This document shows, in pieces, positions 39,399-59,019 of a stretch of 64,000 bases of DNA. Each line of letters begins with the position of its first letter. Position 1 is the stretch's first letter. Position numbers and translations under genes: made by a program. The stretch is taken from the NCBI RefSeq assembly GCF_024699965.1, contig NZ_JAJOMZ010000004.1:2106001-2170000 (forward strand), read 5' to 3'. The notes beneath the pieces were generated by a model. That model saw only the letters and a list, made by a program, of their open reading frames with translations, ran no database searches and had not been told where the DNA came from. The DNA is from Flavobacterium sp. J372. GTDB lineage: Bacteria; Bacteroidota; Bacteroidia; Flavobacteriales; Flavobacteriaceae.

Positions 39399-39839
39399 CT
39401 ACATCTTTTGCGTTTTGCGGCGCTGCTTCTTTTCCTGCTGCTCACCCGGTATGTCTTCTTCACCAGCGGACTGCTTCGCTTTTGTATCCTGCTTTTTGGA
39501 GATGTCAGTTTTTTGACCCTGCTCCTGCTCCTTCGCCTGGCGCGTGTCAAGTCGCTTTTGGTTGGCATCGTAAAGGGTAAGCGTCTTGAATTGCGGGGTT
39601 GCCTCGATGTATTGTTTCACTTCCTGGCCATCCTTTACAAAAGTCGCGGACTGTCGGTTGCCTTTTTTAAGGGAATTGATTAGGTCGTCTTTGTGGGAGT
39701 CGTTGCCCAACTCCTTGATGGGATGCTTTGACAGCACGGCTTCGATATCATACCCGTAATTCTCATGGTAATGCTTCTGGCGGAAATTCCCATTGGCATC
39801 AGCATCCTTAAAGTCCAGCTCGACCCCGGCATACCTCAA
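39399..39839 (-). pseudogene. C-terminal fragment of a DUF3945 (DUF4099-type) protein
   Basis: The preserved part reads YAGVELDFKDADANGNFRQKHYHENYGYDI, SHKDDLINSLKKGNRQSATFVKDGQEVKQYIEATPQFKTLTLYDANQKRL and a lysine/glutamine-rich tail, typical of the C-terminal end of DUF3945 proteins encoded in Bacteroidetes conjugative elements. The N-terminal several hundred residues are missing: before about 39,840 the coding strand becomes antisense MobC. No start codon belongs to the family part. See the junction finding. Confidence 0.8.
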
Positions 39840-40692
39840 CGATGTAATGGAACAATTGGAAGGGCAGATCGCCTCTGCCAAGATTGCCCTGGCCAGGCTG
39901 TCCTCTCCCCAACTCTACTATGTGCTTTCAGGGAATGATTTTACCCTGGACATCAATAACCCTGATTACCCCAAGATCGTCTGCATGGGCAATAACCCGC
40001 AGAAGATACAGATATACGGAGCGGTGCTGTCACTCTATGTCACCCGGCTTGTAAAACAGGTGAACATGAAAGGAAAATTAAAGAGCAGCCTTGTCTTCGA
40101 TGAGTTCCCTACCATCTACCTCAACAATATGGACAGCCTTATCGCCACCGCACGCAGCAATAAGGTCGCAACATGCCTGGGCATACAGGATTTCAGCCAG
40201 CTCCGTAAGGATTATGGGCGGGAACAGGCCGATGTGATCATGAATATCACGGGGAACATCATAGCGGGCCAGGTAACCGGCGATACGGCCAAGCAGCTCT
40301 CGGAACGCTTCGGGAAAATCATGCAGGACAGGGAAAGCCTTTCCATCAATAGCAACGATACTTCCATCAGCCGCTCAAAGCAATTGGATGCGGCTATCCC
40401 GCCCTCTAAAATTGCAGCACTAAGCTCAGGGGAATTCGTGGGTATGGTTGCCGATGACCCCTTATGCAAGATTGACCTGAAGGCTTTCCATTGCGAAATA
40501 CTCAATGACCATGAAGCTATAAAAAAAGAAGAGGAAACGTATCAGGAGATCATGCCGGTAAGGAAAATAGATAACCTGATGGTGCAGCGGAATTATGAGC
40601 AGGTAAAACAGGATGTGCAGGAAATAATACAGTCGGAAATGGAGCGGCTTCTTGCCGACCCGGCGCTGGCGCATCTTGTGGTCAGGAAATAA
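39830..40692 (+). pseudogene. mobC: C-terminal fragment of conjugative coupling protein MobC (TraG/VirD4 family)
   Basis: From about 39,832 the frame reads YLNDVMEQLEGQIASAKIALARLSSPQLYYVLSGNDFTLDINNPDYP and goes on to SSLVFDEFPTIYLNNMDSLIATARSNKVATCLGIQDFSQLRKDYG. That is the Walker B and C-terminal ATPase part of MobC/TraG type coupling proteins. The N-terminal membrane segments and Walker A are gone. It ends normally at 40692. Without the N-terminal half the protein cannot couple DNA transfer. Confidence 0.85.
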
Positions 40693-42031: not shown

Positions 42032-42796
42032 CTAATTTTTATCTTTCAATTGTACTATCTCATTACGGAGTCCCTGAAGTAGGCTCCTGATATCCTCCTT
42101 AGAGATATCTTCCCTTTCAAAGTCTTCCGTTTCGATGCTCCCGGCGTATTTCCATATCTCCAAAACCTCTGAGAGATGGATGGTATAGGGCTGGTAAAAA
42201 GGGTTGTCTGACTCCAGGGTGAGCAAATTGCCCTCACTTTTGCCAACCCTCTTATACACTATCCCTTCGTCGCTGGTCAAAAGCACATATGTTTTACCTT
42301 CCTTAATGTCACTCCTGTCTTCCAGGTATTTCCCGATGATATAGGAACTGTCCCTGTGCGGGGGCATGGAATCCCCATCGATGGGCAATGCCCTGAATTT
42401 ACCGCTTCCCAGAAACGGCAGTGAGATATGGGGCAGCTTTTCAATGAATCCCGGGTCACTATAGCCTGTAAGGTAGCCCGCCTTTGCTTTGTGCGGTACG
42501 ATCTCTATGATATTCTCCCCGTTTTTGTCTACAGCGATAGGAAGCAGGATCCTGTTATCGTCAAGCTTCAGCAGGTTGTCCAAATCTATCTTCCTGATGT
42601 CAGTGGTCAAAAGAAGGTCTATGCTCATATGGTAATACTGCGACAGCTTGACCAGTATCTCAAAAGGGGGCTGTGACTTCCCTTCTTCATATTTTGCAAG
42701 CCTGTCACGTGTAATAGAAAGACTCTCAGCCACGATTGACTGGGAAACCTCTTTTTTCATCCTGAGATGCCTGATGTTGTCAGAGAATAGAGACAT
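42032..42796 (-). CDS. XRE-S24 LexA-like autocleaving repressor
   Basis: 254 residues. An XRE helix-turn-helix at about 6-61 (LRMKKEVSQSIVAESLSITRDRLAKYEEGKSQPP). A likely Ala-Gly cleavage bond is in KAKAGYLTG (106-107), and the S24 catalytic dyad is Ser143 in GDSMPP and Lys182 in VYKRV. This is the LexA/CI design: RecA filaments trigger self-cleavage on DNA damage. It is divergent from dinB-dnaE-alkB, with 87 bases between, and so should repress that cassette and itself. A C-terminal coiled tail of about 30 residues follows. Confidence 0.9.
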   Translation of the reverse strand: MSLFSDNIRHLRMKKEVSQSIVAESLSITRDRLAKYEEGKSQPPFEILVKLSQYYHMSIDLLLTTDIRKIDLDNLLKLDDNRILLPIAVDKNGENIIEIVPHKAKAGYLTGYSDPGFIEKLPHISLPFLGSGKFRALPIDGDSMPPHRDSSYIIGKYLEDRSDIKEGKTYVLLTSDEGIVYKRVGKSEGNLLTLESDNPFYQPYTIHLSEVLEIWKYAGSIETEDFEREDISKEDIRSLLQGLRNEIVQLKDKN

Positions 42797-42883
42797 ATGC
42801 GTTTTGGGATTATTTATCGCAACAAATATAATAAGTTTTGGTAATATCTGTCCTAATTTTGTTCAGTACAAAAATGAAGGATT
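42797..42883. promoter_or_regulatory. Divergent control region, repressor / dinB-dnaE
   Basis: On the minus strand TATATTTG (plus 42823-42830 as CAAATATA) and on the plus strand TAATTTTG (42854-42861) match the TAnnTTTG box. Their -33 elements overlap (TTTTGG at 42836-42841 is on the plus side). The region is too short to hold more than overlapping promoters and the repressor operator. No clear palindrome can be fixed by eye. Confidence 0.5.
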
Positions 42884-44041
42884 ATGGAACGCTCGATTGT
42901 ACATATGGATTTAGACACGTTTTTTGTGTCCTGCGTGAGGCTGCAAAACTCGGCCCTTGAGGGCATTCCGCTTATCGTTGGGGGCGGTGACCGGGGCGTT
43001 GTGGCGTCCTGCTCGTATGAGGCCCGAAGGTTCGGCGTTCACTCGGCCATGCCTATTAAGATGGCGCTGAGGCTCTGCCCTGAAGCCAAAATAGTAAAGG
43101 GGGACATGGAATTATTTTCCCGCTATTCCAATACCGTATCGCAGATCATCGAGGAGAATGCGCCTGTAATGGAAAACGCCTCCATTGATGAATTCTATCT
43201 GGATATAACCGGGATGGACAAATTTCATGGTTCCTATAAATGGACCAATGAGCTCGTGGCGAAAGTCACCAAAGAGACGGGGCTTCCTTTAAGCTTTGCG
43301 CTGTCGGTAAATAAGACAGTCTCCAAGATTGCCACAGGCGAAGGCAAGCCCAAAGGAAACCTTGAGATACCCAAGCCCCTTGTGCAGCAGTTCCTGAACC
43401 CGCTTTCCATACGCAAGATACCGATGGTGGGCGATGCAACCTTCAAGCTGCTCTCGCGCATGAGCATCCGCAATATCCAGACCCTTTCAGAGATACCCGC
43501 TGAAGCCTTACAGGAAATGCTGGGTAAGAACGGCTTGGAATTATGGAAGAAAGCCAATGGTATTGACAACACCCCTGTCGAGCCGTATCGTGAGCGCAAG
43601 TCGCTATCCACAGAAGATACCTTCCACCAGGACACTACTGACATCCTGTTCCTGCGGGCAGTATTGTGCGGTATGGTGGAAAAGCTTGCCTACCAGCTCC
43701 GCAGCGAAGGCTGGCTGACTTCAAATATTACGGTGAAGATCAGGTATTCCAATTTCGATACCGAAACGCGGCAGGTCACCCTGCCCTATACAGCGGCGGA
43801 CCATACCCTTACCCGCGCGGTGCTCGAGGCTTTCGAAAAGCTTTACCAACGCCGTATGAGCCTGCGCCTTGTTGGCGTGCGCTTCGGCAGGCTCGTGCGC
43901 GGGTCCTACCAGATCAATATTTTTGAGGATACACAGGAGATGATGTCCCTGTACCAGGCAATGGACAGGATAAAGAACCGCTTCGGCAGTACAGCTGTGA
44001 TGCGCTGCAGCGGTGCTTTTTTAAAACCTAAAGTGATATAA
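42884..44041 (+). CDS. dinB: Y-family DNA polymerase IV-like
   Basis: 385 residues. Palm motifs: VHMDLDTFFVSCVRL with metal aspartates near 8-10, and ASIDEFYLDITG with the second acidic pair near 103-105. The finger and thumb are present (VVASCSYEARRFGVHSAMPI, IPMVGDATFKLLSRM) and the little finger follows at about 240-385. It lacks the C-terminal beta-clamp motif QLxLF. It is first in a rightward cassette controlled by the S24 repressor; with the next gene it resembles ImuB-DnaE2 type mutasomes. Confidence 0.9.
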   Translation: MERSIVHMDLDTFFVSCVRLQNSALEGIPLIVGGGDRGVVASCSYEARRFGVHSAMPIKMALRLCPEAKIVKGDMELFSRYSNTVSQIIEENAPVMENASIDEFYLDITGMDKFHGSYKWTNELVAKVTKETGLPLSFALSVNKTVSKIATGEGKPKGNLEIPKPLVQQFLNPLSIRKIPMVGDATFKLLSRMSIRNIQTLSEIPAEALQEMLGKNGLELWKKANGIDNTPVEPYRERKSLSTEDTFHQDTTDILFLRAVLCGMVEKLAYQLRSEGWLTSNITVKIRYSNFDTETRQVTLPYTAADHTLTRAVLEAFEKLYQRRMSLRLVGVRFGRLVRGSYQINIFEDTQEMMSLYQAMDRIKNRFGSTAVMRCSGAFLKPKVI

Positions 44042-44042
44042 T

Positions 44043-47000
44043 ATGTACCTGAATTGCCATTCTTTCCACAGCCTCCGTTATGGCACAATACCGGTCGATG
44101 AGCTTGTACTGCTCGGCAAAGCCTGTGGTGTCCGGGCTATGGCGCTCACCGACATCAATACGGTTACAGGTATTTATGAGTTTTACAAAGCCTGCAATGG
44201 ATCCGGAATTAAGCCTTTGGTGGGCATGGAATTCCGTGAGGGCCAAAAAATGCTGTTCGTAGCCCTTGCCCTTAACCGCAAGGGGCTTGGCGAGATCAAC
44301 CGGCTGCGTACAAAGCATAACCTAGAAAGCACTCCTGTTCCTGCACTGGCACCGGGTTTTGAAAATGTTGCGGTCATATATCCTATGGAAAATGCACCGT
44401 CTTCATTAAGGCCAAATGAATACATCGGCATCAGGCCTGATGACCTTTCCCTGCTGATACGCCCGCAATGGAAAACAAGGCTTGATCGTATGGTTGCCCT
44501 GCAGCCCGTTACCGTCCAGACAAAGACTGAGCATAACCTGCACAGGATACTCCGTGCCATAGACCTCAACACGCTGGGAAGCAAACTCAGTCAGGACGAC
44601 TACTGTGCTGCAGGTGAGATGATGGTGCCTATAGAAGTATTGACAGGTAAATACAGCCAATACTCCCAGATTCTACACAATACCGCTACGCTGATTGATC
44701 AATGCAGTTTTGACTATGAGTTCGGGGTGCCCCGAAACAAAAAACACTATACCGCCGGGAGGGAAACGGACCTTGAGCTCCTTACCGGCTTAGCGCACCA
44801 GGGGCTGGCCAAAAGGTATGGAAGTGATAATGCTGCCGCGGCAGCGCGTGTAGAAAAAGAACTGAAAGTGATCCACCAGCTGGAATTCAGCGGCTATTTC
44901 CTTATCACTTGGGACATCATCCGCTACAGTAACTCCATGGGGTTCATGCACATCGGGCGCGGCAGCGGCGCAAACAGCATCATTGCCTATTGCCTTGGCA
45001 TCACCGACATCTGCCCCCTTGAGCTTGACCTGTATTTTGAGCGGTTTTTAAACCTTAATCGCAAAAGCCCTCCTGATTTTGATATTGACTGGTCCTGGAA
45101 AGAACGGGACGTGATACTGGATTATATCTTTAAGCGCTATGGTGCGGACCATGTAGCATTCTGCGGCACCAATGTTGAATTCAAGTACAAATCCATATTA
45201 CGTGAGGTGGGCAAGGTCTTCGGGCTGCCAAAAGAAGAGCTGGATGCCCTATCCGGCACTCCTATGGACCGGCATGACAAGAATGAAGTGGTGCAGTTGG
45301 TGCACCGCTACGGGATGATGCTGGAGAAATACCCGAACCAGCGCTCGATGCATTCCTGCGGTATCCTGATTTCTGAAGACCCGATTACGGATTTTACAGC
45401 CCTGGAGATGCCCCCTAAAGGATTCCCTATCGTTCAGTTTGATATGCATGTGGCGGAAGATATCGGGTTTGACAAATTTGATATCCTTTCGCAAAGGGGT
45501 ATCGGGCATATTGATGAGTCTGTTAAGATCATAAAGAAGAATCGTGGTATTGATGTCAATATCAGGGATACTTCCATCTCAAAAGATGAGGCTTCCTGTA
45601 ACGAATACTTAGGGCAGGGCAAAACCATCGGTTGCTTCTACATTGAGAGCCCTGCGATGCGCGGCCTCCTGCGGCGGCTCAAATGCAATAATTACAAGAT
45701 TTTGGTGGCAGCCTCGTCAATCATCCGCCCCGGGGTCGCCCAAAGCGGCATGATGAAAGAATACATTTTCCGCCATAACTATCCGGATAAGTTTGAATAT
45801 TTTCATCCTGTTTTTGAAGAGCAGCTGGGCGAAACTTATGGCATCATGGTATACCAGGAAGACGTGATCAAGATTGCACTGCATTACGGCGGGGTTGCCG
45901 CAGCCGACGGGGATATCCTTCGACGTGCCATGAGCGGCAAAGGGCGTTCAAAGGCAGCCTTGCAGAAAGTGAAGGATAACTTTTTTGCATCCTGTGCTGC
46001 CAAAGGGCACCCCGAACAGCTGAGCGCGGAAATTTACAGGCAGATCGAATCCTTTGCCGGCTATTCCTTCTGCAAGGCCCACTCGGCTTCTTATGCTGTA
46101 GAAAGCTATCAGAGCCTTTACCTGAAAGTACATTACCCTGTTGAATTCATGGTGGCGGTCATCAACAACCAGGGAGGCTTCTACCGCACGGAAGTATATG
46201 TACACGAAGCGCGCATGTCCGGTGCTGCCATCCATAATCCCTGCATCAACAAGAGCGAGGTGGAAACTACCCTATATGGCAAAGATATTTACCTGGGATT
46301 TATGCACCTTCAGGGATTACAGGGTGAAGTCGCCCATAAGATAGTACAGGAGCGGAATGAAAATGGCAGTTACACTTCCCTCGAGGATTTTATCAACCGT
46401 GTGCCGATTGGCATTGAAGGCCTTCAGCTGTTGATTTACATCGGCGCATTGCGTAGCACAGGCAAGGCAAAGAATGAGCTGCTGATTACGGCAAGGCGCA
46501 TTATGATTAATTTTAAGCCTGAAAACCGCCAACCCCAGCTCATCTCCCAGCCGGCACGTGAGTTCAGGCTGCCCGAGCTTAAGCGCTCGCCGTTTGAGGA
46601 TGCTTTTGATGAGATTGAGCTGTTGGGTTTTCCCGTATCGGTAACACCGTTTAACCTTCTGAAAACATCCTATCGTGGGGATGTGATGGCATGTGATTTG
46701 GTTAATCACCATAAAAAGCAGGTAAGGATGCTTGCTTACCTGGTCTCACGCAAGCATGTCCCAACCAAGATGGGCGCTATGTATTTCGGGACTTGGATCG
46801 ATGCCAAAGGGGATTTTTTTGACACGGCACATTTTACAGGAAGCCTGAAAGAATATCCTTTTAAGGGAGGCGGTTGCTATCTTCTCTTAGGTACTGTCGA
46901 GGTGGATTACCACTTCCCCACCATCACCATATCCAAAATGGAAAAAATGCCCTTTATGCCCGATCCGCGCTACAGGGAGACTGATGCCGAGAGTTCCCGG

Positions 47001-47108
47001 ACACAGGAGAAGCTGCGCGAGGATGTATCGATGACCCAACGGGCACCCTACCCACAGGAGCAGGAAATCAACCTTCCGAGGCATAAGATGAAAACAGTGA
47101 TTAATTAA
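44043..47108 (+). CDS. dnaE: DNA polymerase III alpha subunit, error-prone DnaE-type
   Basis: 1,021 residues, shorter than replicative DnaE (about 1,150-1,450). PHP domain at the N terminus (MYLNCHSFHSLRYGTIPVDELVLL, ALTDINTVTG). The palm has GRGSGANSIIAYCLGI, the catalytic acidic motif PPDFDIDWSWKER and LNRKSPPDFDIDW context, and HSCGILIS. Later motifs include RRAMSGKG and AHSASYAVESYQSLYLK. Two bases separate it from dinB and its stop lies 11 bases before the ATG of alkB, so all three are one operon. Replaces or helps Pol IV in lesion bypass. Confidence 0.9.
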   Translation: MYLNCHSFHSLRYGTIPVDELVLLGKACGVRAMALTDINTVTGIYEFYKACNGSGIKPLVGMEFREGQKMLFVALALNRKGLGEINRLRTKHNLESTPVPALAPGFENVAVIYPMENAPSSLRPNEYIGIRPDDLSLLIRPQWKTRLDRMVALQPVTVQTKTEHNLHRILRAIDLNTLGSKLSQDDYCAAGEMMVPIEVLTGKYSQYSQILHNTATLIDQCSFDYEFGVPRNKKHYTAGRETDLELLTGLAHQGLAKRYGSDNAAAAARVEKELKVIHQLEFSGYFLITWDIIRYSNSMGFMHIGRGSGANSIIAYCLGITDICPLELDLYFERFLNLNRKSPPDFDIDWSWKERDVILDYIFKRYGADHVAFCGTNVEFKYKSILREVGKVFGLPKEELDALSGTPMDRHDKNEVVQLVHRYGMMLEKYPNQRSMHSCGILISEDPITDFTALEMPPKGFPIVQFDMHVAEDIGFDKFDILSQRGIGHIDESVKIIKKNRGIDVNIRDTSISKDEASCNEYLGQGKTIGCFYIESPAMRGLLRRLKCNNYKILVAASSIIRPGVAQSGMMKEYIFRHNYPDKFEYFHPVFEEQLGETYGIMVYQEDVIKIALHYGGVAAADGDILRRAMSGKGRSKAALQKVKDNFFASCAAKGHPEQLSAEIYRQIESFAGYSFCKAHSASYAVESYQSLYLKVHYPVEFMVAVINNQGGFYRTEVYVHEARMSGAAIHNPCINKSEVETTLYGKDIYLGFMHLQGLQGEVAHKIVQERNENGSYTSLEDFINRVPIGIEGLQLLIYIGALRSTGKAKNELLITARRIMINFKPENRQPQLISQPAREFRLPELKRSPFEDAFDEIELLGFPVSVTPFNLLKTSYRGDVMACDLVNHHKKQVRMLAYLVSRKHVPTKMGAMYFGTWIDAKGDFFDTAHFTGSLKEYPFKGGGCYLLLGTVEVDYHFPTITISKMEKMPFMPDPRYRETDAESSRTQEKLREDVSMTQRAPYPQEQEINLPRHKMKTVIN

Positions 47109-47118
47109 AGTGACCGCT

Positions 47119-47757
47119 ATGATTTTATTTGACCAGACTGATATATTTACAACAGGGACGGCTGGCAGGAAAATATTTGACCTGCCGGACCTGGAACTCA
47201 TGCAATATGATGGATTTATCCCAAAAGCGCATGCTGACAGCTATTATACTATACTGCTCAGCAATACCCCCTGGCAGGAATACCAGATGCCGATGTATGA
47301 CAAAATGGTTACGGCTCCCCGGATGATCGCATGGTATGGCGAGCAGGAAGAAGCCGGCGAAACTGCCTTGCCATGGACACCTGAGCTGTTGGAACTTCGG
47401 GATCAGGTCCAGCAGGAAACAGGGCTTAGGTTCAATGCAGTGCTGCTGAACCTGTATCGTAACGGCAATGATAGTGTCGCCTGGCATTCGGATAGGGAGC
47501 ATAAGATCGGCAAAAATCCTAACATAGCCTCAGTGACATTTGGCCAGACCAGGCCTTTCAGGTTCCGGCACAAGAACAACAAAGAGGTTGGGCAATTAGA
47601 GATCCCGCTGCATCACGGGACTTTATTGCTGATGTCAGGCACGACCAATACTTTTTGGGAGCATCATATCCCTAAGTCGGCAAAAAACATGCTGCCAAGG
47701 ATTAATTTAACTTTCAGGCAGGTAAGAAACAATGGAAATTCGAACGGCCTGAAATAG
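47119..47757 (+). CDS. alkB: AlkB-type 2-oxoglutarate/Fe(II) dioxygenase
   Basis: 212 residues. The jelly-roll core shows Fe ligands H and D in VAWHSDREHKIGKNP and the distal H in FWEHHIPKSAKN, then the 2OG-binding R in LPRINLTFRQV; RFNAVLLNLYRNG precedes. It directly repairs alkylated bases (1meA, 3meC). The ATG at 47119 is chosen over the GTG at 47110. It ends the dinB-dnaE operon, putting bypass and direct reversal of damage under the same repressor. Confidence 0.9.
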   Translation: MILFDQTDIFTTGTAGRKIFDLPDLELMQYDGFIPKAHADSYYTILLSNTPWQEYQMPMYDKMVTAPRMIAWYGEQEEAGETALPWTPELLELRDQVQQETGLRFNAVLLNLYRNGNDSVAWHSDREHKIGKNPNIASVTFGQTRPFRFRHKNNKEVGQLEIPLHHGTLLLMSGTTNTFWEHHIPKSAKNMLPRINLTFRQVRNNGNSNGLK

Positions 47758-48123
47758 GAATGCTTATATTTGGGTATCTAAAATATTGGGATTAAAAGTA
47801 GGTTTTGCTCTTTTATCACATTGGGCCTTCGGGGTGGCGTTCTCTGGCGTGTTAATTCACTCCCTGTTAGAAATGATTGTTGAACACATAAAACGAAGAA
47901 TTATGGAAAAAGGACTGAACACAAAACGTGGAATTTTAACTTTAATCAAAAAAATCTTAGGTGGGGCCCTTTCGGGAAGCACGCTGTGGAGCGCCACCCC
48001 AAGATAGCTGAGTGTGATGGAGATAAAAGCATGCTTACTTCCCGATTTGAGGGCCCGGGGGTTCGATTCCCCCGCTTCCTGCCTCGCTACTGAACAATTT
48101 GAGCAATATTGATTGATTTTACT
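47758..48123 (+). ncRNA. Unassigned structured interval with a tRNA-like 3' end
   Basis: At 48057-48080 the sequence forms a canonical tRNA T-arm and acceptor: stem GGGGG, loop TTCGATT, stem CCCCC, then GCTTCCT, with G as discriminator. GGGAAGC at 47974-47980 pairs with that acceptor (7 bp). No convincing D-arm or anticodon arm lies in the 76 bases between. GGGGTGGCG (47831-47839) pairs with CGCCACCCC (47992-48000). A TATATTTG box is at 47765-47772. A 34-codon frame (47903-48007) is possible but weak. It may be a tRNA remnant or an RNA gene. Confidence 0.4.
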
Positions 48124-48554: not shown

Positions 48555-51092
48555 ATGTCCACAAAGCGTAACAATAGTTTTTTGTCTGTAATATATATTA
48601 TACTGTTGTGTCTGTCATTTTTTGGCATTTGGCTACTATACAAAAAATATATACTCCAAAAAAAACAAAGACAACTCCTAATATCCTATAAGGAAAAAAT
48701 CAGCGAGGCTAATCACTATGGTAACAACCTTTTGGGCTTTCAAAAATATTTTGCCCGGTGGGATGAGCAACAGTATGCCCAAAAATTCAAAGACTTGCGT
48801 AAAGTAATCAAGCCGGGGTACGAAAATTTAGGATTAGATGAACAATATATAGCAGCCATTGAAAAATTCACCTGCACTTTCGATGAAATTAGTGAAATTC
48901 GAAAGGCATACAATGACGAGTTTGTAATAAAGGACAAAAAAGCATATCAACATTTGTTTGACAGCCTCGAAGAATATCCTCTATCAGCAGATCAGATAGA
49001 GGCTGTCATCCGTGACGAAGACAATAACCTTGTGTTAGCTGGCGCTGGTACCGGTAAGACAACAACCATATCAGCAAAAGTAGCTTACATCCTTGAAAAG
49101 AAACTGGCCTCACCCCAGGAGCTCCTGATCATCTCCTTTACCAATAATGCCGTGGAGGAAATGCGCGAAAGATGTAGGAAGTTTTGCAAGCATATCCCAG
49201 GGGCTGAAGATCTTGACGTAAGGACATTCAACAGTTTTGGATACCTGGTCAACCGACAATGTTCAAAACAGGAACTTCACCTTGCTTTTGGAGGTAAAGA
49301 GGACGCCGCAAAAGCATTCCTACAGGAAAATTTTGATAAACTATTTCTCGAAGATGCAGATTTTCAGCGAAAGGCCACCAACTTTATCGCCTTTTTTAAC
49401 AGACCGGATCGTGATGAATTCAAATTTGAAACAAAAGACGATTTCATAAAGCACGAGCAAAGCTTCAAAAATGAGACACTTGATGGAAAGAAAGTCAATA
49501 GTAAAGAGGAAATGGAGATCGGAAATTTCTTTTGTTTATTCGGAATCAACTATGAATATGAGAAGCATTATCCATTAGAACCTGATGATCGTAACGCTGA
49601 TTACAGCAGTTATCATCCGGATTTTTTCCTGACCGATTACAATATTTGGCACGAGCACTTTGGTGTGGACCGTGAAGGCAATGTACCCAATTGGTTTAAA
49701 ACCAAGTCTCCATACCCCACGGCTAAGGAGTATTATCAGGCAGGAATGAACTGGAAGAGGGGCATCCATGCCAAATACGGAACATCCCTCATCGAATCGT
49801 ACTCCTTTGAAAATGCGGAAGGCAGCCTAATCTCCAATTTAAAGCAAAAATTAGTGCAGCACGGAGTGATTCTTGAACCCCGAAAACCGGAAGATATTCT
49901 GCCCTTGATAAAGAAATCGGCATATTATGAGGACTTCATAAACCTTTTCTATACTTTCCTCGGGCTAATGAAGTCAAACGCGAAAGCACCAGATGACATT
50001 ATCGCTAAAAGCCGTGACCGCAGGCTAAAAATATTTATGGATGTGTTCAAGCCGGTTTACCATCATTACGAAACGCAGTTACGTAACCGATCACATGTAG
50101 ATTTCAACGATATGATTAATCATGCAGCGGACTATATAGCCACTGGGAATTACAGTAAGCCTTATAAGTACATTCTGGTTGACGAGTTTCAGGATATGTC
50201 CCTTGGAAGGTACGAACTTTTAAAAAGCTTAAAAAAGCAAAATCCCGGACTCAAACTATATGCCGTTGGTGATGACTGGCAGTCCATTTTTCGTTTTACT
50301 GGCAGCGATATTTCCATCATTACCGAGTTCGAGAAACATTTTGGATTTACCAGTACAACGGCTATATTTCGTACGTACCGCTTCAACGATGAGATTTTAG
50401 AGCTTTCCAGCAGCTTCATCCAGAAAAATCCATCGCAAATACGCAAAACCCTGATTTCGGAACGTGAGGCGGAAGAAAAGAGTTTTGCTTTCATCGGGTC
50501 GGAAATTACTGGTAACCGCGACGCTCACCAGGAAGCAAAAGAGCTGGCCATACGCTCCGTACTTCAGGAAATCAGCACTTTAAAAAAAGATGCAAAGGTT
50601 TTTCTGATTGGGCGCTACCATCATAACATACCGGCGGGATTCAAAGCACTGGTAAAAGACTATCAAGCGCTAAAAATTGAATATTACACGAGCCATGGTG
50701 TTAAGGGGATGACTTGTGACTACGCTGTCGTACTGGATGTAAATTCCGGCATTCTCGGCTTCCCTTCAGAAATGGCCGATGATCCATTATTGGGCTTTTT
50801 GCTCCATGAGGGGGACAGCTTCGAAAATGCAGAGGAACGCCGAGTATTTTATGTAGCGATCACCCGTGCCAGGCATAAGAATTTCCTCTTATACAATGTG
50901 CTTAACCCCAGCAAATTTCTTATTGAGATTATGGGGGAAACGGATGCCCCAGGCTCAATGGCAGGCAAATGCCCGGACTGTTCAGGCCAACTGGTCGAAC
51001 GTAAAGGCCCCTATAGCGCATTTATAGGATGCTCAAATTATCCCCAATGCGATTTTAGGACGAGGAGTACAATTGCAACCAACAATGCTTAA
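48555..51092 (+). CDS. Membrane-anchored UvrD/HelD-type helicase with C-terminal zinc finger
   Basis: 845 residues. One transmembrane helix at 9-29 (FLSVIYIILLCLSFFGIWLLY) and a charged linker precede an SF1 helicase: Q-motif LSADQ (143-147), Walker A LAGAGTGKTTT (161-171), motif Ia SFTNNAVEEMRERC, Walker B ILVDEFQDMS, motif III VGDDWQSIFRFTGSD, motif IV FRTYRFNDEI, motif V SHGVKGMTCDYAVVLD, motif VI RRVFYVAITRARH. The C terminus has a topoisomerase-type C4 zinc finger (CPDCSGQL ... CSNYPQCDF), as in helicase IV. It precedes the AAA-HEPN gene by 45 bases; see findings. Confidence 0.9.
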   Translation: MSTKRNNSFLSVIYIILLCLSFFGIWLLYKKYILQKKQRQLLISYKEKISEANHYGNNLLGFQKYFARWDEQQYAQKFKDLRKVIKPGYENLGLDEQYIAAIEKFTCTFDEISEIRKAYNDEFVIKDKKAYQHLFDSLEEYPLSADQIEAVIRDEDNNLVLAGAGTGKTTTISAKVAYILEKKLASPQELLIISFTNNAVEEMRERCRKFCKHIPGAEDLDVRTFNSFGYLVNRQCSKQELHLAFGGKEDAAKAFLQENFDKLFLEDADFQRKATNFIAFFNRPDRDEFKFETKDDFIKHEQSFKNETLDGKKVNSKEEMEIGNFFCLFGINYEYEKHYPLEPDDRNADYSSYHPDFFLTDYNIWHEHFGVDREGNVPNWFKTKSPYPTAKEYYQAGMNWKRGIHAKYGTSLIESYSFENAEGSLISNLKQKLVQHGVILEPRKPEDILPLIKKSAYYEDFINLFYTFLGLMKSNAKAPDDIIAKSRDRRLKIFMDVFKPVYHHYETQLRNRSHVDFNDMINHAADYIATGNYSKPYKYILVDEFQDMSLGRYELLKSLKKQNPGLKLYAVGDDWQSIFRFTGSDISIITEFEKHFGFTSTTAIFRTYRFNDEILELSSSFIQKNPSQIRKTLISEREAEEKSFAFIGSEITGNRDAHQEAKELAIRSVLQEISTLKKDAKVFLIGRYHHNIPAGFKALVKDYQALKIEYYTSHGVKGMTCDYAVVLDVNSGILGFPSEMADDPLLGFLLHEGDSFENAEERRVFYVAITRARHKNFLLYNVLNPSKFLIEIMGETDAPGSMAGKCPDCSGQLVERKGPYSAFIGCSNYPQCDFRTRSTIATNNA

Positions 51093-51137
51093 CCTGTAGC
51101 CGCACACTGTTCAGCGGCTGCATTACCATATTTTATT

Positions 51138-53482
51138 ATGAAACCAATCGATATTATCGGATTAAAGAACTTCAGGATTTTTGATTTCACAACCGGCTTT
51201 TTAGGCGAATTATCATCAATTAATATTTTGACCGGCGCCAATAATTCCGGAAAGAGCTCTATTATAAAAGCCTTGCAAATGCTCAAAAACAGCAGCAAAC
51301 AAAATCAATTTCCATTACAGCTGGATTTAAATCAGCAGGAACACTTTTAGGCGATTTCAATAATGTCCTGTTTGATAACAAATATCGGGACCTTACGGTT
51401 TCGCTTCCTTTCACTTTCCTGGGGATGAAAAATATTTATGTCGCTCTGAAATATGAAGTCCCTGCTTCCAAAAACACTTTTACGGCAAGCCTAAGGGCAA
51501 TACAGGTCGTGGATAAATCTGATCAAAGTATTGTATTCTCCTTTACCTACAGGGATGCCACAGACCAGGAAAAACAAGATCATAGGGCTATTTTCGATGC
51601 TGAGATGACCGAGTATGAAGCACAGAAAGGAGAGACTACTGACTTGATGACCGCATTCATCAATGGTAATAGCCGTTGGCTCATACCTCCCCATCAAAAT
51701 CCACTGGAAGGCTATATTGAGTGGTCTATGAACCTTGAAAAGCTAAAATCCTATTTGTCGAAACTCAGAAATTTTTACCTCTTGTATATTGAAAACAAAG
51801 GAAAGTGGATTGGTTTAGACAAGATTGATGATCGTGCCCACGATATATTCTTTATACCTTCTGTTTTGGTAAATTCTTTCACTAAGGATATTGGGCCGGA
51901 ATCCTGGAATGACTTCATTGACAATGTCATTGGAGACCTAAAAAAAATTGAAGGCAAGGAGAAAATTGGACAAGATGCCTTCGAGTCGGATGAATATTTT
52001 TTGCCCCGTCCCGAAATTGAGGAGGTACTCTACTGGGAAACCTTAAAAATTTTCAAAAGCAAATTAGTATGGAATATTACTGATGATGAAGGGGCTAATC
52101 ATTCCATTATGGCGAACAGTTTTGAGAGTAGCTGGAAAGCTTTAGCGCAACGGATTAGTACAATAAGCTATGTTTCAAACATAAAAGAGGAAAATGCCAG
52201 GATTTATAATGCTAATGTAAATTCGCCTTTTATAAATCTTCTGAAAGAATACAGCAACCTGGGCTATAAGGAAACAGACTTCATCCGAAAATATTTGAAG
52301 ATATTTGATATAGGTAACGATATCAAAATTGATTATGATCCTAAATACCAGTTGATAAAGGTTATCATAGTTACATTCGATGGTATCGAAAGGGAACTTA
52401 TTGATTTTGGATATGGCATAAAACAGTTGATACTTATTTTGATCCAGATCAGTATTCTGGCACAGAAGAGTAAAGACTTAAGGCAGGAATATGATGAAGA
52501 ATACGGCGAGGTTTTTAACGATTATTATGCCCCGGGTATTTTGCTTATCGAGGAGCCGGAATCTAACCTTCACCCTAAATGGCAATCGGTTATGGCAACA
52601 ATGTTCGCTGAGGCCAACAGCGAATTCAAAATTCAGCTCATCGTTGAAACGCACAGTGAATACCTGATCAGGAAGCTACAGAATTTAGTAGCTGATGGTG
52701 AGTTAAAACCACAAAGCGTTAAAATATTCTATCTCAGAAACCTTCATAAGATTGAAGTGGGAAAGGGGCAGGTCGAAAGCCTGTTTATCCAGGATGACGG
52801 CAGTATCGATTATACTATGTTTGACAGCGGTTTTTTTGATGAAAGCACTAATTTGGAATTCAGCTTGCTGAATATCCGCCGTGAAAATTTCATAAAGGAA
52901 TTTGAAGATTTAAAACAAAATAATGACGACAACGTAGATAAAATTGCCGAACTGCAGCAGAAAGTTGATGCCTACACCGACAAGGTAGACCTAAATGCAT
53001 ATAGCCTAACGATTCATAGGCGATTTGACACCTCTAAGCTATCACCCGTAAGCGTCAAGTACCTTGTATCAGGCCAATACCTTTTAAGCAACATCAGTGC
53101 AGGAGATGATTTTTCGCCGGTAATCCTCCAGTACGGAAGGACTATTGAGAATGAGCTCCTAAAACTCTTTAACCGGGTTGATTCAAACGGGAACTGGTCT
53201 ATTGGCAAAATGCAGGCGGCAATGGAACATGCACTTTCACGTAGAGTAATTTTGCGAGGAGCCTTAAATGATGTAACAACTGCACAACGTACCGCTTTGG
53301 GAACGCAGCTCCGCAGTACATTTGTTAACCATACAAATTTAAAGGTAGGTTTACTTGACCGCTTGCGAAAAAGACGTAATGAATCCGGACATCCGGGGCA
53401 TACCAAAACACGGCAAGACGCTGTGGACTACATCCGTGATGCTAACGACTTTCTGGATAAGTGGATTGGTGAAATGCGGTAA
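51138..53482 (+). CDS. OLD-like AAA ATPase with C-terminal HEPN-like motif, frameshifted
   Basis: After repair about 781 residues. N-terminal: IIGLKNFRIFDF and Walker A ILTGANNSGKSSIIKALQML (about 31-49). Then a long middle insert, then LLIEEPESNLHPKWQSVMATMF (signature plus Walker B) and LIVETHSEYLIRKLQNL (switch), the OLD/DUF3696 ABC-ATPase pattern. No TOPRIM (no ExxxR-DxD) is seen. The last 230 residues are helical and contain QYGRTIENELLKLF and RNESGH (53376-53393), an RNxxxH HEPN RNase motif. The break is at 51345-51348, T4 for T5 (EHLLGDFNNVLFDN). Confidence 0.8.
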
Positions 53483-53628: not shown

Positions 53629-54936
53629 CTAAGGCTTGGCAGCATTTTTTTTTATTTCTTCCTGTACCCATGTGCTAAGCCTTCCACTTTTATTTTCAGC
53701 GGCGTAAATTTTTCCGTTGGGCAGGATAACGCATTGGCACTTATCGATCAGCAATTTCAATTTTTGATTTTCCTCAAACACCAACCCGGTATTTTTCAAT
53801 GATGTAATAAAATGATCGAGGCTATCGTAATTACCCTCCATTACAAATTCCTCTATGTTATCATCGGAACCAAGATCAATTTCACCATTTCTGCAGAGCT
53901 CAGCAATGATGACGTGCTGCTTCTCGTCAATCTCAACCGGTAACCATTTTGAATACGCTAAATCCGCCTTAAAAAATTCCTCACCTGGAGAAAAAGCATG
54001 ATAATGCCATCCCTTGTGTCCCTGCAATTCACCATAGGTAGCATCCATAAAGGCATTCACCTGTTCAACCACCAGGTCATCACCGAATATTTCCGGATCA
54101 ATACTTTCAAATCTGTATGTCAGCCTGGTCCATAGGACCTCCAGAAAAAATTTCGCAGCATCACGCGATGAACTGGTATAAAATGGCCAGGACCCGTCTT
54201 CAAATAGTGGTGCAGCGAAAGGCATTCCATTTTGTTTGTGCATTGTAAACCTATTGCAAATGATGAGATTTGGAAAATTATGCGGACCATAATGCCCTAT
54301 TATATTTGATACATCAGTTGTGATATTTTCAGCAAGATGCGAATACAGCGATTCCCTGAAATTACGCTCACTGGCAAATCCGTTAAACCCCCAAACAATT
54401 CTCGCCGGCAGTAATGCATCAGCACGCAAAGATTGGTATATTGCCTTTTCAGCATCATTTAAGGTACTATAGCTTGTGATGTCTTTGCGGCAGATTGACC
54501 GGAACCCATCACGTAGCAACCTGACCATGTAAGGCTCGAGATCCCGATTCTCGTAATAGTCCAATATCAACTTCAAGTTACCATAACTCTCCTTCATATC
54601 AGCCGAATACAAATTCTTTTTTACCCCGATTATAGCAATTACCTGATCCGGCCTGCAAACGTATCTGTCGCTATACGGCAATTTGGATGCCTGTCCTTCA
54701 ATAAGCATAACATCAAATTCCGTTGGGCAGCCCTCTATGAAACTATTGGTTACAACTTGTAAGTCAAGCGATGTAAAAATCGACTTATTCAGAATTTCTT
54801 GTGTCAGCCCTTCGTACATTGTGCCAATGGTTACAGGATGTGTGATGTTTTCATCTATAATCGCCTGCTCGATTTCGTTCATTCCTTGCGGGATAAATTT
54901 TGTTAGCAGGTCTGCTAATGTGTTTATCTGGATCAT
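53629..54936 (-). CDS. DUF6602 family nuclease-like protein
   Basis: 435 residues. The N-terminal domain follows the DUF6602 plan: GTMYEGLTQEILNKSI, VVTNSFIEG, TEFDVMLIEG (Asp75) and VIAIIGVKKNLYSADMKESYGNL. The family usually has E-V-K where this has G104-V-K106, so the PD-(D/E)xK glutamate is missing. The middle and C-terminal parts have no known motif. The SEC-C gene lies 28 bases upstream on the same strand, so the two are probably one operon, convergent with the AAA-HEPN gene. It could be an inactive or partner subunit. Confidence 0.65.
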   Translation of the reverse strand: MIQINTLADLLTKFIPQGMNEIEQAIIDENITHPVTIGTMYEGLTQEILNKSIFTSLDLQVVTNSFIEGCPTEFDVMLIEGQASKLPYSDRYVCRPDQVIAIIGVKKNLYSADMKESYGNLKLILDYYENRDLEPYMVRLLRDGFRSICRKDITSYSTLNDAEKAIYQSLRADALLPARIVWGFNGFASERNFRESLYSHLAENITTDVSNIIGHYGPHNFPNLIICNRFTMHKQNGMPFAAPLFEDGSWPFYTSSSRDAAKFFLEVLWTRLTYRFESIDPEIFGDDLVVEQVNAFMDATYGELQGHKGWHYHAFSPGEEFFKADLAYSKWLPVEIDEKQHVIIAELCRNGEIDLGSDDNIEEFVMEGNYDSLDHFITSLKNTGLVFEENQKLKLLIDKCQCVILPNGKIYAAENKSGRLSTWVQEEIKKNAAKP

Positions 54937-54964: not shown

Positions 54965-57900
54965 CTACATTCCATCCTGAAATAATAGCTTAACATCTCT
55001 TTTGAGCTCAGGAAAAGCAAGTATCGGCATCGGAAGTGCTCCCGCCCTGATGTACGGCGTTGGAATTACCTGAGAAGATACCATAAGCGATTTTACTTTC
55101 ACAGTGCCCTCCGCTTTAAATAATCCCTGAAGTTGTCCTGTGTTGGCTGTTAGCCATTGGTGTCTCTCCAGATGCTTATGCACCATGCCTTCTTTACCAT
55201 CCCTGCCAAGATACCTGTCCATTTCTGTCTTCATTTCATGTATATTCTTGGCCTGCGTAGTATTTTTGCATTCGATGCTAAAGACCACACCTGTGGGCTC
55301 ATGAAGGGCAAGCACATCGACATCGCCGTAAGGCTTATCGGTGTTCAGTGTTCCTCCTGGAGACATATCGACTTCATGGCTGATTACAATGAAATCAGGC
55401 TGCGCTGATAGCCATTCATATACGATCCTTCGAAAACGGTCGCCCCTTTCTTTGGTATACGACCCTAAAAGCGCATTGATCTCTTTCTTGCCATTATTAA
55501 GCCTGGCTCCTTCAAGAAGGCTGTTTAATTGGTGTTCCGCACCGCTTGCTGCCCGGAATCCCCATGTAAGAAGCGGCTCTCCGGATTTGTCATGATGCCT
55601 TATCAGGAAACGACGCAACAGGCTAAACTCACGATTGTACTTCCACGGAAAAACCTCGTTGTTTTGGAATCCCTCCGGTGCCTTCAGATAAGATTCTCGT
55701 GGGGAAAGGCTTAGCCGTTCAATGCCACACATAATTTCAGACTCTGGTATTTGTGTCTTTTCAAGCAGTTTTGAAATGAAATCTTTTTCAGGCATTGTAA
55801 TCACAGATGTCTCCGCTTCAATGCAGAATACTACAGCAAAATGAAACAACAGGTGCATATGGCTCCAACTGATTCCCCAATCGGCCAAAAACGCTTTATC
55901 ATGCCGGGCAACGGTTTCCAGCACTTCTTCAGAAGGTTCGCCACTTGGGGGAACGTATATCTCAAATTTGTCAGCAAAATTATCAATTTTTCTATCAATT
56001 TCTGCCTTTGTATTGGCAATCCCATACGGCGCAATTTTTTCTGAAAATAATAGGGACGTAAAACCTATCCTGCCCGACGGCAATAAACCTACTTCCGGGT
56101 CATCCATCTTAAAATGCACTGCATCACTCATCATTCCAAAATTGGTAATCTCATGCATTATTGCCAAGAGCCTGTCTACATCATCAAGCCCGGCGCGCTG
56201 TGTACCTTTACTTGGTACGGCAGCAAGATATTCAACAAGGTTTCGAAGCGATACGGAGGTTCTTGTAACTTTTGCCTGTTCAGCGTGAATCTTATCGACT
56301 TTATTTTCCAAATCCCCAAAGCAAATTAGTTGAGCCGGGGTGATTGTATGGTCATAATCCCGCTTCTGCACAATTGCTTCATGAAGGTTCAGCAGTAGGG
56401 TAAGCAACAATGCATTATCAAATTTACCAGCCTCTTCAGCCAGCTTTTCCAAAAGTACGGATGTTGCTGTATTAAAGAGTGCGCGCTTATCCTCTCCCGA
56501 GTCAATTTTTTCAGCTATGGGCATCTTTGCAGCAATTAGTCCCGGAAGCTCATCCATAAGCAATTCAGTCTCGGCATCCTCCATCAGAAATGCAGGCAGA
56601 AGCCAGCGCCTGTCTATCATTATATCTTGTTGGCTGTCAGATATCAAAATCATCTTAGCTGGTCCGAGCGGCATGTGACTGTCCAGCAGTTCTTCAATTT
56701 GGCGATCGTCTATTGCAACGCCTTCCAGTTCGTTGAAGGTTTTCAGGATATGGCTCATCATCCTCCTTTCACCCTCATTGGTCGGCCCGCTGAAAGAAAG
56801 TAGTGATGAAGCAGGTATTCCGATAGTGAGGATATAATTGTTGTAGCCGACAGTATAATCATCCTTATTTCGGTCGGCCATTTCACTAAATGTCAATAGT
56901 TTAAAAATATCCTCATGTAGCTGTATCCGCACTTCCAGCGGAAAATCCAGTCCTGGATCAAGCAGCATCCTCAGGGATGGCTCCATTTTGTACAGCCAAA
57001 AACCAATTGCATTTGTAAAAAGTCTTAACGTCCCGGCCATTGAATCGTTTCTTATCTGCCTGCTGACGAACCAAATTGGATTCCTATAAAGGTCCAATGC
57101 TTCTATAAAATATCCGACATGCTTATAGGGCTTGTATATTGGAGCATAATCAGCGCAGGATACTACCGGAAAGTATCCCATAACGCCTTTACTCAGAGCA
57201 GGTAGTGCCTTGAAGTTTTCCTGTCTTTTAGCATGCTTAATTAATTCAGCGCCTTCGTTAGTACCTGTTATCATAAAATCAGGCGTACGCTCATCGGAGA
57301 AATAAAAACTGGAACTCTTTTGTTTGTAGAGGCTATATAGCTCAAGGGTTCCCGCCATACTTTGTGTCTTTCTCAAAAAGATATCCAGCGCTTTGGCAAA
57401 CTTCCATAGGCTTAGGCTTTCCCAATCCTCCCCTTTTGAAAGGTTTACAAAGTCATGGATGTTAAACGGCAAGCGATATTCTCGTTCGCCGGGTTTTTCA
57501 ATACTGCCGAGATAGAAGCGTCCGCACGAATCGTATAGATGCAATACTAAGAACTCGTAATCCTCAAACCCTGGCTTTGCCTTAAGTTCTGCCATGACAG
57601 CTGCAATTCGTTCAGGAATTTTATCGGATACGCTGACAGCTTCGGGATTTTTCCAGTAGTCATCCAGACTCACCGGGCTGTCAAGCACAACATATGCGAT
57701 ACGATTTGTATCAAATTGCAGGATCGCTTCTGTAAGATTTGCTATTTTACTGCCGCTAATGGCAATATCCGTCAGTGCCCATCCCATTTGCCTACAGCAT
57801 TCAAGAAAATGCCCCCAAGATTCAGCACGGTAGGCATCCAAAACCGGTTCCTGACAATTAAATTTCCTCGCCGCCCTTAAAATAAACTCATTAAGGCTGT

Positions 57901-58708
57901 TGAGTTGGTTGGATGGCAATACGAAGTAATACTTGCCATCGTACTGAATTATGGGATAAAATAGCAGAGGTGAATCCATTCCGCTTTGTTCAATGGAAGC
58001 CTTCCTTTCTTCCGTCAGGACAAAGTCTTTTACAATCCTGATATCGATACCGAGGCTACTACAAATAGTTTGAAGATCCTCATAAGCAATACCGTAATCA
58101 TTGCCATCGGGCCCGAGTGATAATAATCCGTCCCCCTCTTCCGATTGCATGTAGCTTGTTAGGCCAGCTTGATTTGCGTACAGGTCAGCCAGATATAAAA
58201 GCAAAGTTACGCCGTGAAGGATTCCTTGGATGAATGCAGGTGGGAGTGCAATACCGCTATTAAAAATTACCTGCGTGAGTTGCCTGAAAATTTCATTGCT
58301 ATGGTTAGCTATTCCCGGGAACACAATATTATTACCATGGTAAAAGACAGCGTTTTCCGTAAAAAAACCGCCCGGAGGGTCTTCATTATAATCAAAGGAA
58401 TGTTCGCTGTCCAGGAAGCTTTTTAGTTCTTTTCTGTCCACATCTTTCCCAGGGCCTAAAGTCTGTAACGCTATATCTGCCAAGGCTTCAATCCTCATGT
58501 TCTTACCATGATTTTCAGCTACAAGCTGAAGGCCTATTATCTCGTTTAACACATCATGCGAATCATGTATGACAAAAAAGCTTTCAGTCAACGATACTGC
58601 GGACTGATGCTCTCTTTCGTGTTCAGGTAGTTTTTCCACATTGTGGCATTTTTTATTTTTTAAGCCTGATCCACAGGGACAAGGATCATTTCTTCCTATT
58701 TTTTTCAT
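54965..58708 (-). CDS. Giant SEC-C motif protein with C-terminal PD-(D/E)xK nuclease
   Basis: 1,247 residues from ATG 58708. The start is a SEC-C zinc motif, IGRNDPCPCGSGLKNKKCHN (about 3-22). About 1,100 residues of unassigned, mostly alpha-rich protein follow. Near 1,100-1,165 is a nuclease: VISHEVDMS, KPYGDVDVLALHE and VFSIECKNTTQAK give D ... ExK spaced as in PD-(D/E)xK folds. The tail KVKSLMVSSQVIPTPYIRAGALPMPILAF follows. The gap to ssb (58709-59019) holds a start-extension frame and nothing conserved. It resembles large nucleases of defence islands, but I know no named system with this layout. Confidence 0.75.
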   Translation of the reverse strand: MKKIGRNDPCPCGSGLKNKKCHNVEKLPEHEREHQSAVSLTESFFVIHDSHDVLNEIIGLQLVAENHGKNMRIEALADIALQTLGPGKDVDRKELKSFLDSEHSFDYNEDPPGGFFTENAVFYHGNNIVFPGIANHSNEIFRQLTQVIFNSGIALPPAFIQGILHGVTLLLYLADLYANQAGLTSYMQSEEGDGLLSLGPDGNDYGIAYEDLQTICSSLGIDIRIVKDFVLTEERKASIEQSGMDSPLLFYPIIQYDGKYYFVLPSNQLNSLNEFILRAARKFNCQEPVLDAYRAESWGHFLECCRQMGWALTDIAISGSKIANLTEAILQFDTNRIAYVVLDSPVSLDDYWKNPEAVSVSDKIPERIAAVMAELKAKPGFEDYEFLVLHLYDSCGRFYLGSIEKPGEREYRLPFNIHDFVNLSKGEDWESLSLWKFAKALDIFLRKTQSMAGTLELYSLYKQKSSSFYFSDERTPDFMITGTNEGAELIKHAKRQENFKALPALSKGVMGYFPVVSCADYAPIYKPYKHVGYFIEALDLYRNPIWFVSRQIRNDSMAGTLRLFTNAIGFWLYKMEPSLRMLLDPGLDFPLEVRIQLHEDIFKLLTFSEMADRNKDDYTVGYNNYILTIGIPASSLLSFSGPTNEGERRMMSHILKTFNELEGVAIDDRQIEELLDSHMPLGPAKMILISDSQQDIMIDRRWLLPAFLMEDAETELLMDELPGLIAAKMPIAEKIDSGEDKRALFNTATSVLLEKLAEEAGKFDNALLLTLLLNLHEAIVQKRDYDHTITPAQLICFGDLENKVDKIHAEQAKVTRTSVSLRNLVEYLAAVPSKGTQRAGLDDVDRLLAIMHEITNFGMMSDAVHFKMDDPEVGLLPSGRIGFTSLLFSEKIAPYGIANTKAEIDRKIDNFADKFEIYVPPSGEPSEEVLETVARHDKAFLADWGISWSHMHLLFHFAVVFCIEAETSVITMPEKDFISKLLEKTQIPESEIMCGIERLSLSPRESYLKAPEGFQNNEVFPWKYNREFSLLRRFLIRHHDKSGEPLLTWGFRAASGAEHQLNSLLEGARLNNGKKEINALLGSYTKERGDRFRRIVYEWLSAQPDFIVISHEVDMSPGGTLNTDKPYGDVDVLALHEPTGVVFSIECKNTTQAKNIHEMKTEMDRYLGRDGKEGMVHKHLERHQWLTANTGQLQGLFKAEGTVKVKSLMVSSQVIPTPYIRAGALPMPILAFPELKRDVKLLFQDGM

Positions 58709-59019
58709 GGGGATGTAAAAAGCTAAAAGTAAAAAAATTCGCTCAGCCTGCAATACGTGAAATTACCTGTTTCATAGTGTAAGACACATTTCCAATGCGA
58801 AAACGGCTTAAAAGGGCAGCTAAGTTAGCGGGCGACGTGCGCTGCATGCGCATAATGGCCCCGCAATCGCGTGCCCACCCTTCGGGACTTATAGCACTCC
58901 GCGCCCTTACCGCCCGCTTTCAACTGGCTTTCTTTTTTTCCGTTTTTTCTTTTGGAAAATGTTATGCGGGATTTGAGGGAGCAGATGGGATTGAATGTCG
59001 AATTAAAAACTTTTACATC
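58709..59019. other. Interval between the cargo block and ssb
   Basis: About 310 bases without a recognised gene. Composition changes here from AT-rich on the left to GC-rich on the right, starting near 58,800. An open frame runs through it in phase with ssb (from 58795) but encodes an unconserved, arginine-rich leader. It may hold the ssb promoter and a module boundary. Confidence 0.5.

Follow-up and report, generated by a model that had tools for sequence, protein, structure and literature searches.

Do a helicase gene and the ATPase gene directly behind it in Flavobacterium sp. J372 form a two-gene anti-phage system, or are they two unrelated genes that happen to be neighbours? We addressed this question in a window of 64,000 nucleotides (C4:2106001-2170000; feature positions below are counted from its first letter), taken from a genome of 3.53 Mb in 7 contigs, one of which accounts for 3.32 of the 3.53 Mb. 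The original prediction had read the locus as a Gabija-like pair in which an OLD-like ATPase starts 45 bases after a UvrD-type helicase on the same strand, and the layout itself was borne out by the coordinates, with the helicase open reading frame (ORF) at 48555-51092 and the start of the ATPase gene at 51138. Our analysis favours, with reasonable confidence, two independent neighbours within a defence-type cargo region, of which the second encodes a stand-alone protein that joins an ATP-binding cassette (ABC) ATPase to a predicted HEPN RNase, while the helicase is apparently a separate gene and an independent resident.

The neighbourhoods of relatives carry the argument for independence. Full-length relatives of the ATPase were located at 15 non-redundant places (L006-L016, G095, two in G769, and G696) after duplicates had been left out (G988 of L010, G796 of L011, and L096, whose neighbours are as in L008), and the helicase stood beside them at 0 of the 15 (tblastn E <= 1e-10, within the available flanks, which are short on both sides in L006 and on one side in L010, L014, and L015). 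Three pairs lie in common islands (L014 with G095, L010 with G696, and the two copies in G769), so that these places represent about 12 independent contexts. The helicase was likewise not found at ten loci of two related ATPase subfamilies (0/10, some flanks being short), and, approached from the other side, no full-length ATPase adjoined helicase relatives at any of 22 places outside the window, six of which have no less than 3.4 kb of flank in either direction and the remainder about 1.5 kb or less. The nearest helicase relative, in G825, is 71% identical and has other genes as neighbours, the remaining ones being 30-37% identical. Conserved linkage of the two genes, on which the original prediction had been staked, thus failed to appear in this survey, many of whose flanks are short.

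The domain at the end of the ATPase gene carries the rest of the argument. The 685-amino-acid ORF that holds most of this gene ends in a HEPN-like domain (residues 515-685; 52967..53482, + strand), recognised from the alignment, from an HHalign comparison to DUF4145, and from weak Pfam matches. Within it, the predicted RNase motif R651-N652-x3-H656 (53375..53392, +) and a conserved acidic residue of the predicted site, E575 (53147..53149, +), are invariant in 49 of 49 sequences, this alignment comprising the window copy and 48 relatives drawn from the 120 matches listed. In a second alignment, made of 47 full-length relatives without the window copy and numbered after P0002, the corresponding R743-N744-x3-H748 and E671 are unchanged in 47/47, and at least 38 of the 47 carry K or R four positions past E671, an Ex3[KR]-type context. 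According to PMC3710099, a HEPN site consists of Rx4-6H, the residue next to the R being polar as a rule, and many families add an acidic residue in Ex3[KR]; the spaced R and H, the polar residue, and the upstream acidic residue all occur in the ATPase family.

Profile comparisons pointed the same way, with the C-terminal alignment matching DUF4145 at 88% (HHalign score 42.1; profile built from 7 matches, one of them below the Pfam cut-off) as against 0.1% for OLD-TOPRIM (score 8.7; profile built from 16 of 17 matches, the sub-cut-off one having been dropped). Null comparisons for the score of 42.1 gave a maximum of 19.2 over 200 column shuffles, a maximum of 33.1 with none at 80% over 100 shuffles of 8-column blocks, and 18.2 for the reversed alignment. 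The window's 685-residue ORF had no TOPRIM match in Pfam at E <= 1, and across the 49 members TOPRIM was not among the best 25 of 60 Pfam families. Two additional genome searches added little, as HEPN_Swt1 gave no match in 21 genomes nor in the controls and is hence uninformative, and HEPN_Apea, with a match in 1 of 23 genomes, was set aside. An RNxxxH tail standing where TOPRIM would be expected, and its reading as HEPN, had both been proposed for this protein, and both are upheld at the level of sequence by the invariant motif and glutamate, by weak but recurrent HEPN-clan matches, and by profiles that favour a DUF4145-type HEPN and not TOPRIM. The tail is therefore a probable HEPN RNase domain.

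Ahead of this tail lies an ABC-type ATPase head, in keeping with the OLD-like ATPase originally proposed, and AAA_15 and AAA_21 match all 49 members. The P-loop (GxNxxGKS; G33, N35, G38, K39, S40), the Walker B region EEPExNLHP (E472-E473-P474-E475 and N477-L478-H479-P480), and the H motif that follows it, ETHSEY (E504-T505-H506-S507-E508-Y509), are each invariant in 47/47 relatives in P0002 numbering, and together they make up the set of motifs of an ABC-type head. Searching with the 685-residue ORF recovered 383 proteins among 8000 scored candidates, and a profile search recovered 495; among the matches listed (120 of the 383), most relatives are about 770-800 residues long. The family is seen at full length in Flavobacterium, Pedobacter, Chryseobacterium, Bacteroides, and others, and its distribution is sporadic and scattered, with presence in 5 of 398 genus-sample genomes at E <= 1e-100 and in 2 of 395 phylum-sample genomes, the J372 genome being counted in both. 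The helicase type was found in 15/398 genomes of the genus (E <= 1e-100), 1/296 of the order (E <= 1e-150), and 9/395 of the phylum (E <= 1e-120). A contig scan with a single ATPase protein as query found no relative, and an alignment was used as query instead; on viral contigs this alignment returned 21 loci, among which L096 alone is full length, and the helicase as query returned no match there. Plasmid records with a match numbered 23 for the ATPase, none across 80% of its length, and 1331 for the helicase, of which 81 cover at least 80% of the helicase, all at <60% identity.

The contig scan also revealed ten loci with longer or more distant ATPase relatives (L017-L024, L046, L082) that belong to two further subfamilies, and all ten of these proteins end in RNCAGH, RNNAGH, or RNNAAH. 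At least three subfamilies, of about 775, 965, and 775-815 residues, have the coiled coil and the RNxxxH tail in common, and the tails of eight long relatives align to the window family at 99.6% (HHalign). Of six proteins that were scanned, just the two from Bernardetia gave a weak HEPN_Swt1 match, and one of this pair also matched DUF4145. Two other AAA_15 relatives that were inspected (L029, L031) end right after the ATPase part, without a HEPN-like tail.

Relatives of the ATPase also keep defence-type company. Of ten neighbouring proteins picked at six loci (L144, L013, L016, L012, L010, and L009), six match defence models strongly, one matches weakly (45 bits, L012), and three match none (two in L010 and one in L009). 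The strong matches include a cyclase (550 bits), an E1-E2 protein (840), and a JAB protein (182) of a cyclic-oligonucleotide-based anti-phage signalling system (CBASS) at L144:5806-11689, which adjoins an ATPase-HEPN relative and forms an island also present in L014. A GajA/GajB pair at L013:5633-12019 lies about 0.3 kb from another such relative, and a phospholipase effector (390 bits) stands beside the one in L016. Integrase-like genes, recognised by reading the sequence by eye, adjoin the ATPase in L007, L008, and G769. Of seven proteins picked near three helicase relatives, two match no defence model and five do, one of these five weakly.

Several observations weigh against the reading of two independent genes with a HEPN-tailed ATPase. 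Both genes occur in 2 of 398 genus genomes at E <= 1e-100, namely J372 itself and G769, in the latter of which they are about 126 kb apart, and the 45-base spacing on one strand is compatible with co-transcription in this one genome. The ten neighbours of ATPase relatives were picked by eye before scanning. For the HEPN assignment, the Pfam HEPN-clan matches among the 49 members are weak (DUF4145 in 15, best E 0.0014; HEPN_Swt1 in 5, best E 0.0044; HEPN_Apea in 4, best E 0.028), the HHalign match to DUF4145 spans 40 columns around the motif, the tails of the second subfamily taken alone do not match DUF4145 (0.1%), and a PDB sequence search with the C-terminal profile returned no HEPN chain, unrelated proteins only.

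The close spacing and shared strand also feed two alternatives. A Gabija-like two-gene system, with the helicase sensing DNA and the ATPase-HEPN protein as effector, would explain this arrangement together with the domain-level likeness of both proteins to the GajB and GajA models, and Gabija does resemble the window pair in that genes for a UvrD-type helicase and an OLD-like ATPase adjoin. The window pair, however, differs in its reversed gene order, in a helicase that bears a zinc ribbon and a hydrophobic segment, and in having no TOPRIM match, and no second instance of it turned up in the available flanks. Its scores are also low and partial: on PADLOC the best GajB model reached 144 bits in three stretches of the helicase, with the RTasHel model higher at 151, and the GajA models gave about 36 bits for the ATPase part only (53 bits for the intact relative P0002), whereas the true pair at L013 in Chryseobacterium indologenes, our positive control, scored 998 bits for GajA and 718 bits for GajB (residues 4-560 of 561). 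None of the three marks of Gabija, a GajA with TOPRIM, a full-length GajB match, and conserved adjacency, was found here, and we rejected the Gabija-like pair because linkage is absent in the flanks, model scores are low, and TOPRIM is absent; a functional system of this kind seems very unlikely. A recent strain-level operon, in which two unrelated defence genes were joined by insertion and are co-transcribed without acting together, would account for the gap and strand and for the sporadic occurrence of both genes (15/398 genomes for the helicase and 5/398 for the ATPase at E <= 1e-100), and we regard it as possible, if somewhat doubtful. It is compatible with two independent neighbours, adding co-transcription alone.

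Two further alternatives concern the ATPase gene itself, which had been placed at 51138-53482. Its start and identity hold, but it is not one open frame: a first piece of 70 amino acids (51138..51347, +; AAA_15 E 2.6e-9) includes the P-loop (~51234-51257) and matches the intact relative P0008 at 82% over the latter's residues 1-71, and the remaining gene is the 685-residue ORF (51425..53482, +) with the Walker B region EEPESNLHP (~52541-52576), a coiled-coil-like stretch, and the C-terminal domain. The frame that holds this ORF is open from upstream of 51425 and the break lies near 51,345, so that the P-loop of the window copy sits in the piece ahead of it; we searched the two pieces separately and left the frame unmended. 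The break after 70 amino acids suggests that the ATPase could be a true pseudogene here, with the helicase alone functional, which we hold as a tentative alternative, short of probable. Against it, the remainder of the gene retains the family-invariant residues, and the serine dehydratase gene sdaA in the same window (525-1948) is likewise split across two frames within SDH_alpha, in a genome whose completeness is 95% despite one dominant contig, which suggests assembly indels. Because sdaA is split as well, a sequencing indel is a fair alternative to a pseudogene, and the break in the ATPase may be an assembly or sequencing error. It is also conceivable that the C-terminal domain is HEPN-like but no longer cuts RNA and serves dimerisation or binding, as some HEPN families are listed as inactive in PMC3710099; in that source, however, it is families lacking the motif that are inactive, and those retaining it are predicted to be RNases. 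With R, N, H, and E invariant in 47/47 relatives and RN..H found again in 10/10 distant members, we consider such a loss unlikely.

How new is a stand-alone ATPase-HEPN protein? A nucleic-acid sensor coupled to an RNase had been proposed as a new combination, which overstates the case for the ATPase by itself, since ABC-ATPase-HEPN fusions have been on record since 2013, namely PrrC, RloC, the APECO1_4465 group, and the ERFG_01251 group (PMC3710099). By the descriptions given there, all four groups share with the window family an N-terminal ABC-type ATPase and a C-terminal domain with Rx4-6H, HEPN in those groups and predicted HEPN in the window family, the ABC heads of RloC and PrrC regulate the C-terminal HEPN RNase, some ABC-ATPase-HEPN proteins lie in islands or prophages, and RloC is not tied to a restriction-modification system. 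The window protein is most likely a stand-alone member of the known PrrC/RloC kind. It differs from PrrC and RloC in that their heads are described in the same source as SbcC/Rad50-like, whereas the window family has an AAA_15/OLD/AriA-type head with a DUF3696-like segment and a HEPN part that resembles the DUF4145/Swt1 types.

Among the matches listed for the window ATPase family, none was to a PrrC or RloC model. AriA of the phage anti-restriction-induced system (PARIS), retron-type PtuA, and NsnB/PDC-M55A (all PADLOC) resemble it in the ATPase head, and the NsnB, PDC-M55A, and AriA models match 47/47 members at domain level; in P0002 the matches to these models run no further than residues 511-572, and the coiled coil and HEPN tail lie beyond them. 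Among the papers listed in literature searches, no title or abstract opening pointed to this family, and no curated name for it appeared in Pfam, NCBIfam, or PADLOC among the matches listed. A 2020 classification of ABC ATPases might include it. Taking the subfamilies together, we see an evenly balanced case for an uncharacterised single-gene Bacteroidota defence class, in which an OLD/AriA-type ATPase would carry a HEPN RNase where relatives have TOPRIM or nothing, and which would form a second, independent ABC-HEPN lineage beside PrrC/RloC.

The neighbouring gene (48555..51092, +) encodes a helicase-IV-like superfamily 1 (UvrD-type) helicase of 845 amino acids, assigned from Pfam, NCBIfam, and hydropathy, with Pfam matches to UvrD-helicase (E 8e-47), UvrD_C, and Zn_ribbon_Top1 (E 1e-12). 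The membrane anchor and zinc finger ascribed to it earlier correspond to an N-terminal hydrophobic segment at about residues 8-30 (a 19-residue stretch with mean hydropathy of 2.57) and a C-terminal Top1-type C4 zinc ribbon at residues 804-836. Its top NCBIfam match is PRK11054, DNA helicase IV, at 396 bits, under the cut-off of 543, and several of its relatives (843 among 8000 scored candidates) carry DNA helicase-4/IV names; given this sub-cut-off score, it is a relative of DNA helicase IV (Escherichia coli HelD type) and not an equivalog, and the hydrophobic segment and zinc ribbon are further differences. An insert at 49410-49754 (residues ~286-400) is conserved, with PDF and EHxG motifs, E358 and H359 invariant and D347 nearly invariant in 34 sequences (P0121 numbering), and a PHROG match annotated as Holliday junction resolvase (E 1.3e-5); it may be a nuclease-like domain. 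We also considered the helicase and an AlkB-like gene as a conserved pair. In the window the two are 0.8 kb apart, and in G825 about 6.7 kb separate an AlkB relative (79%) from the 71% identical helicase; these are two cases that differ in spacing and strand, and they prove nothing.

The pair had been assigned to an element cargo slot, which is plausible given a TraG-like fragment (39793-40692) and a phage/plasmid-type DUF932 gene (59481) in the window, but the edges of such an element were not located, as no direct repeats of at least 20 bases were found within 38000-64000. Upstream, at 42032-47757, a helix-turn-helix/S24 repressor-like gene on the - strand is followed on the + strand by consecutive genes for a Y-family polymerase, a DnaE-like polymerase, and an AlkB-like protein, the polymerase names being readings of the sequence by eye, and together these genes resemble a mobile DNA-damage cassette. 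In the gap from AlkB to the helicase, 48057-48085 resembles a tRNA 3' end (T-arm) where no tRNA was called, and no second copy that would mark it as a possible attachment (att) site was found in the genome at <=3 mismatches. Promoter-like sites numbered 11 against a shuffle mean of 15.3, which is fewer, and terminator-like sites 7 against 5.7, which is similar. Downstream, the next gene after the ATPase (53629-54936, -) encodes a DUF6602 protein with a weak PD-(D/E)xK-type PADLOC match, and it is followed by a 1262-residue protein with a SEC-C motif (54965-58753, -), a distant relative of the anti-phage protein Upx whose score of 154 bits is far below the family cut-off of 1900.

What might the ATPase-HEPN protein do? 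Its architecture runs from an AAA_15/OLD-type ABC ATPase head through a DUF3696-like segment and a coiled coil to the C-terminal predicted HEPN RNase. On the model of RloC and PrrC, the head would most likely restrain the RNase by binding and hydrolysing ATP until an infection signal, which could be DNA ends, altered nucleotides, or some phage protein, sets it free. The freed RNase would then cut RNA and so halt translation and phage growth, as in RloC/PrrC. Our analysis drops a false helicase and ATPase system and leaves one gene with invariant predicted catalytic residues, relatives of which have CBASS, Gabija, or phospholipase-effector genes as neighbours at three loci. If RNA is indeed cut under ATPase control, the OLD-type ATPase sensor would be a module compatible with both RNase and DNase effectors.

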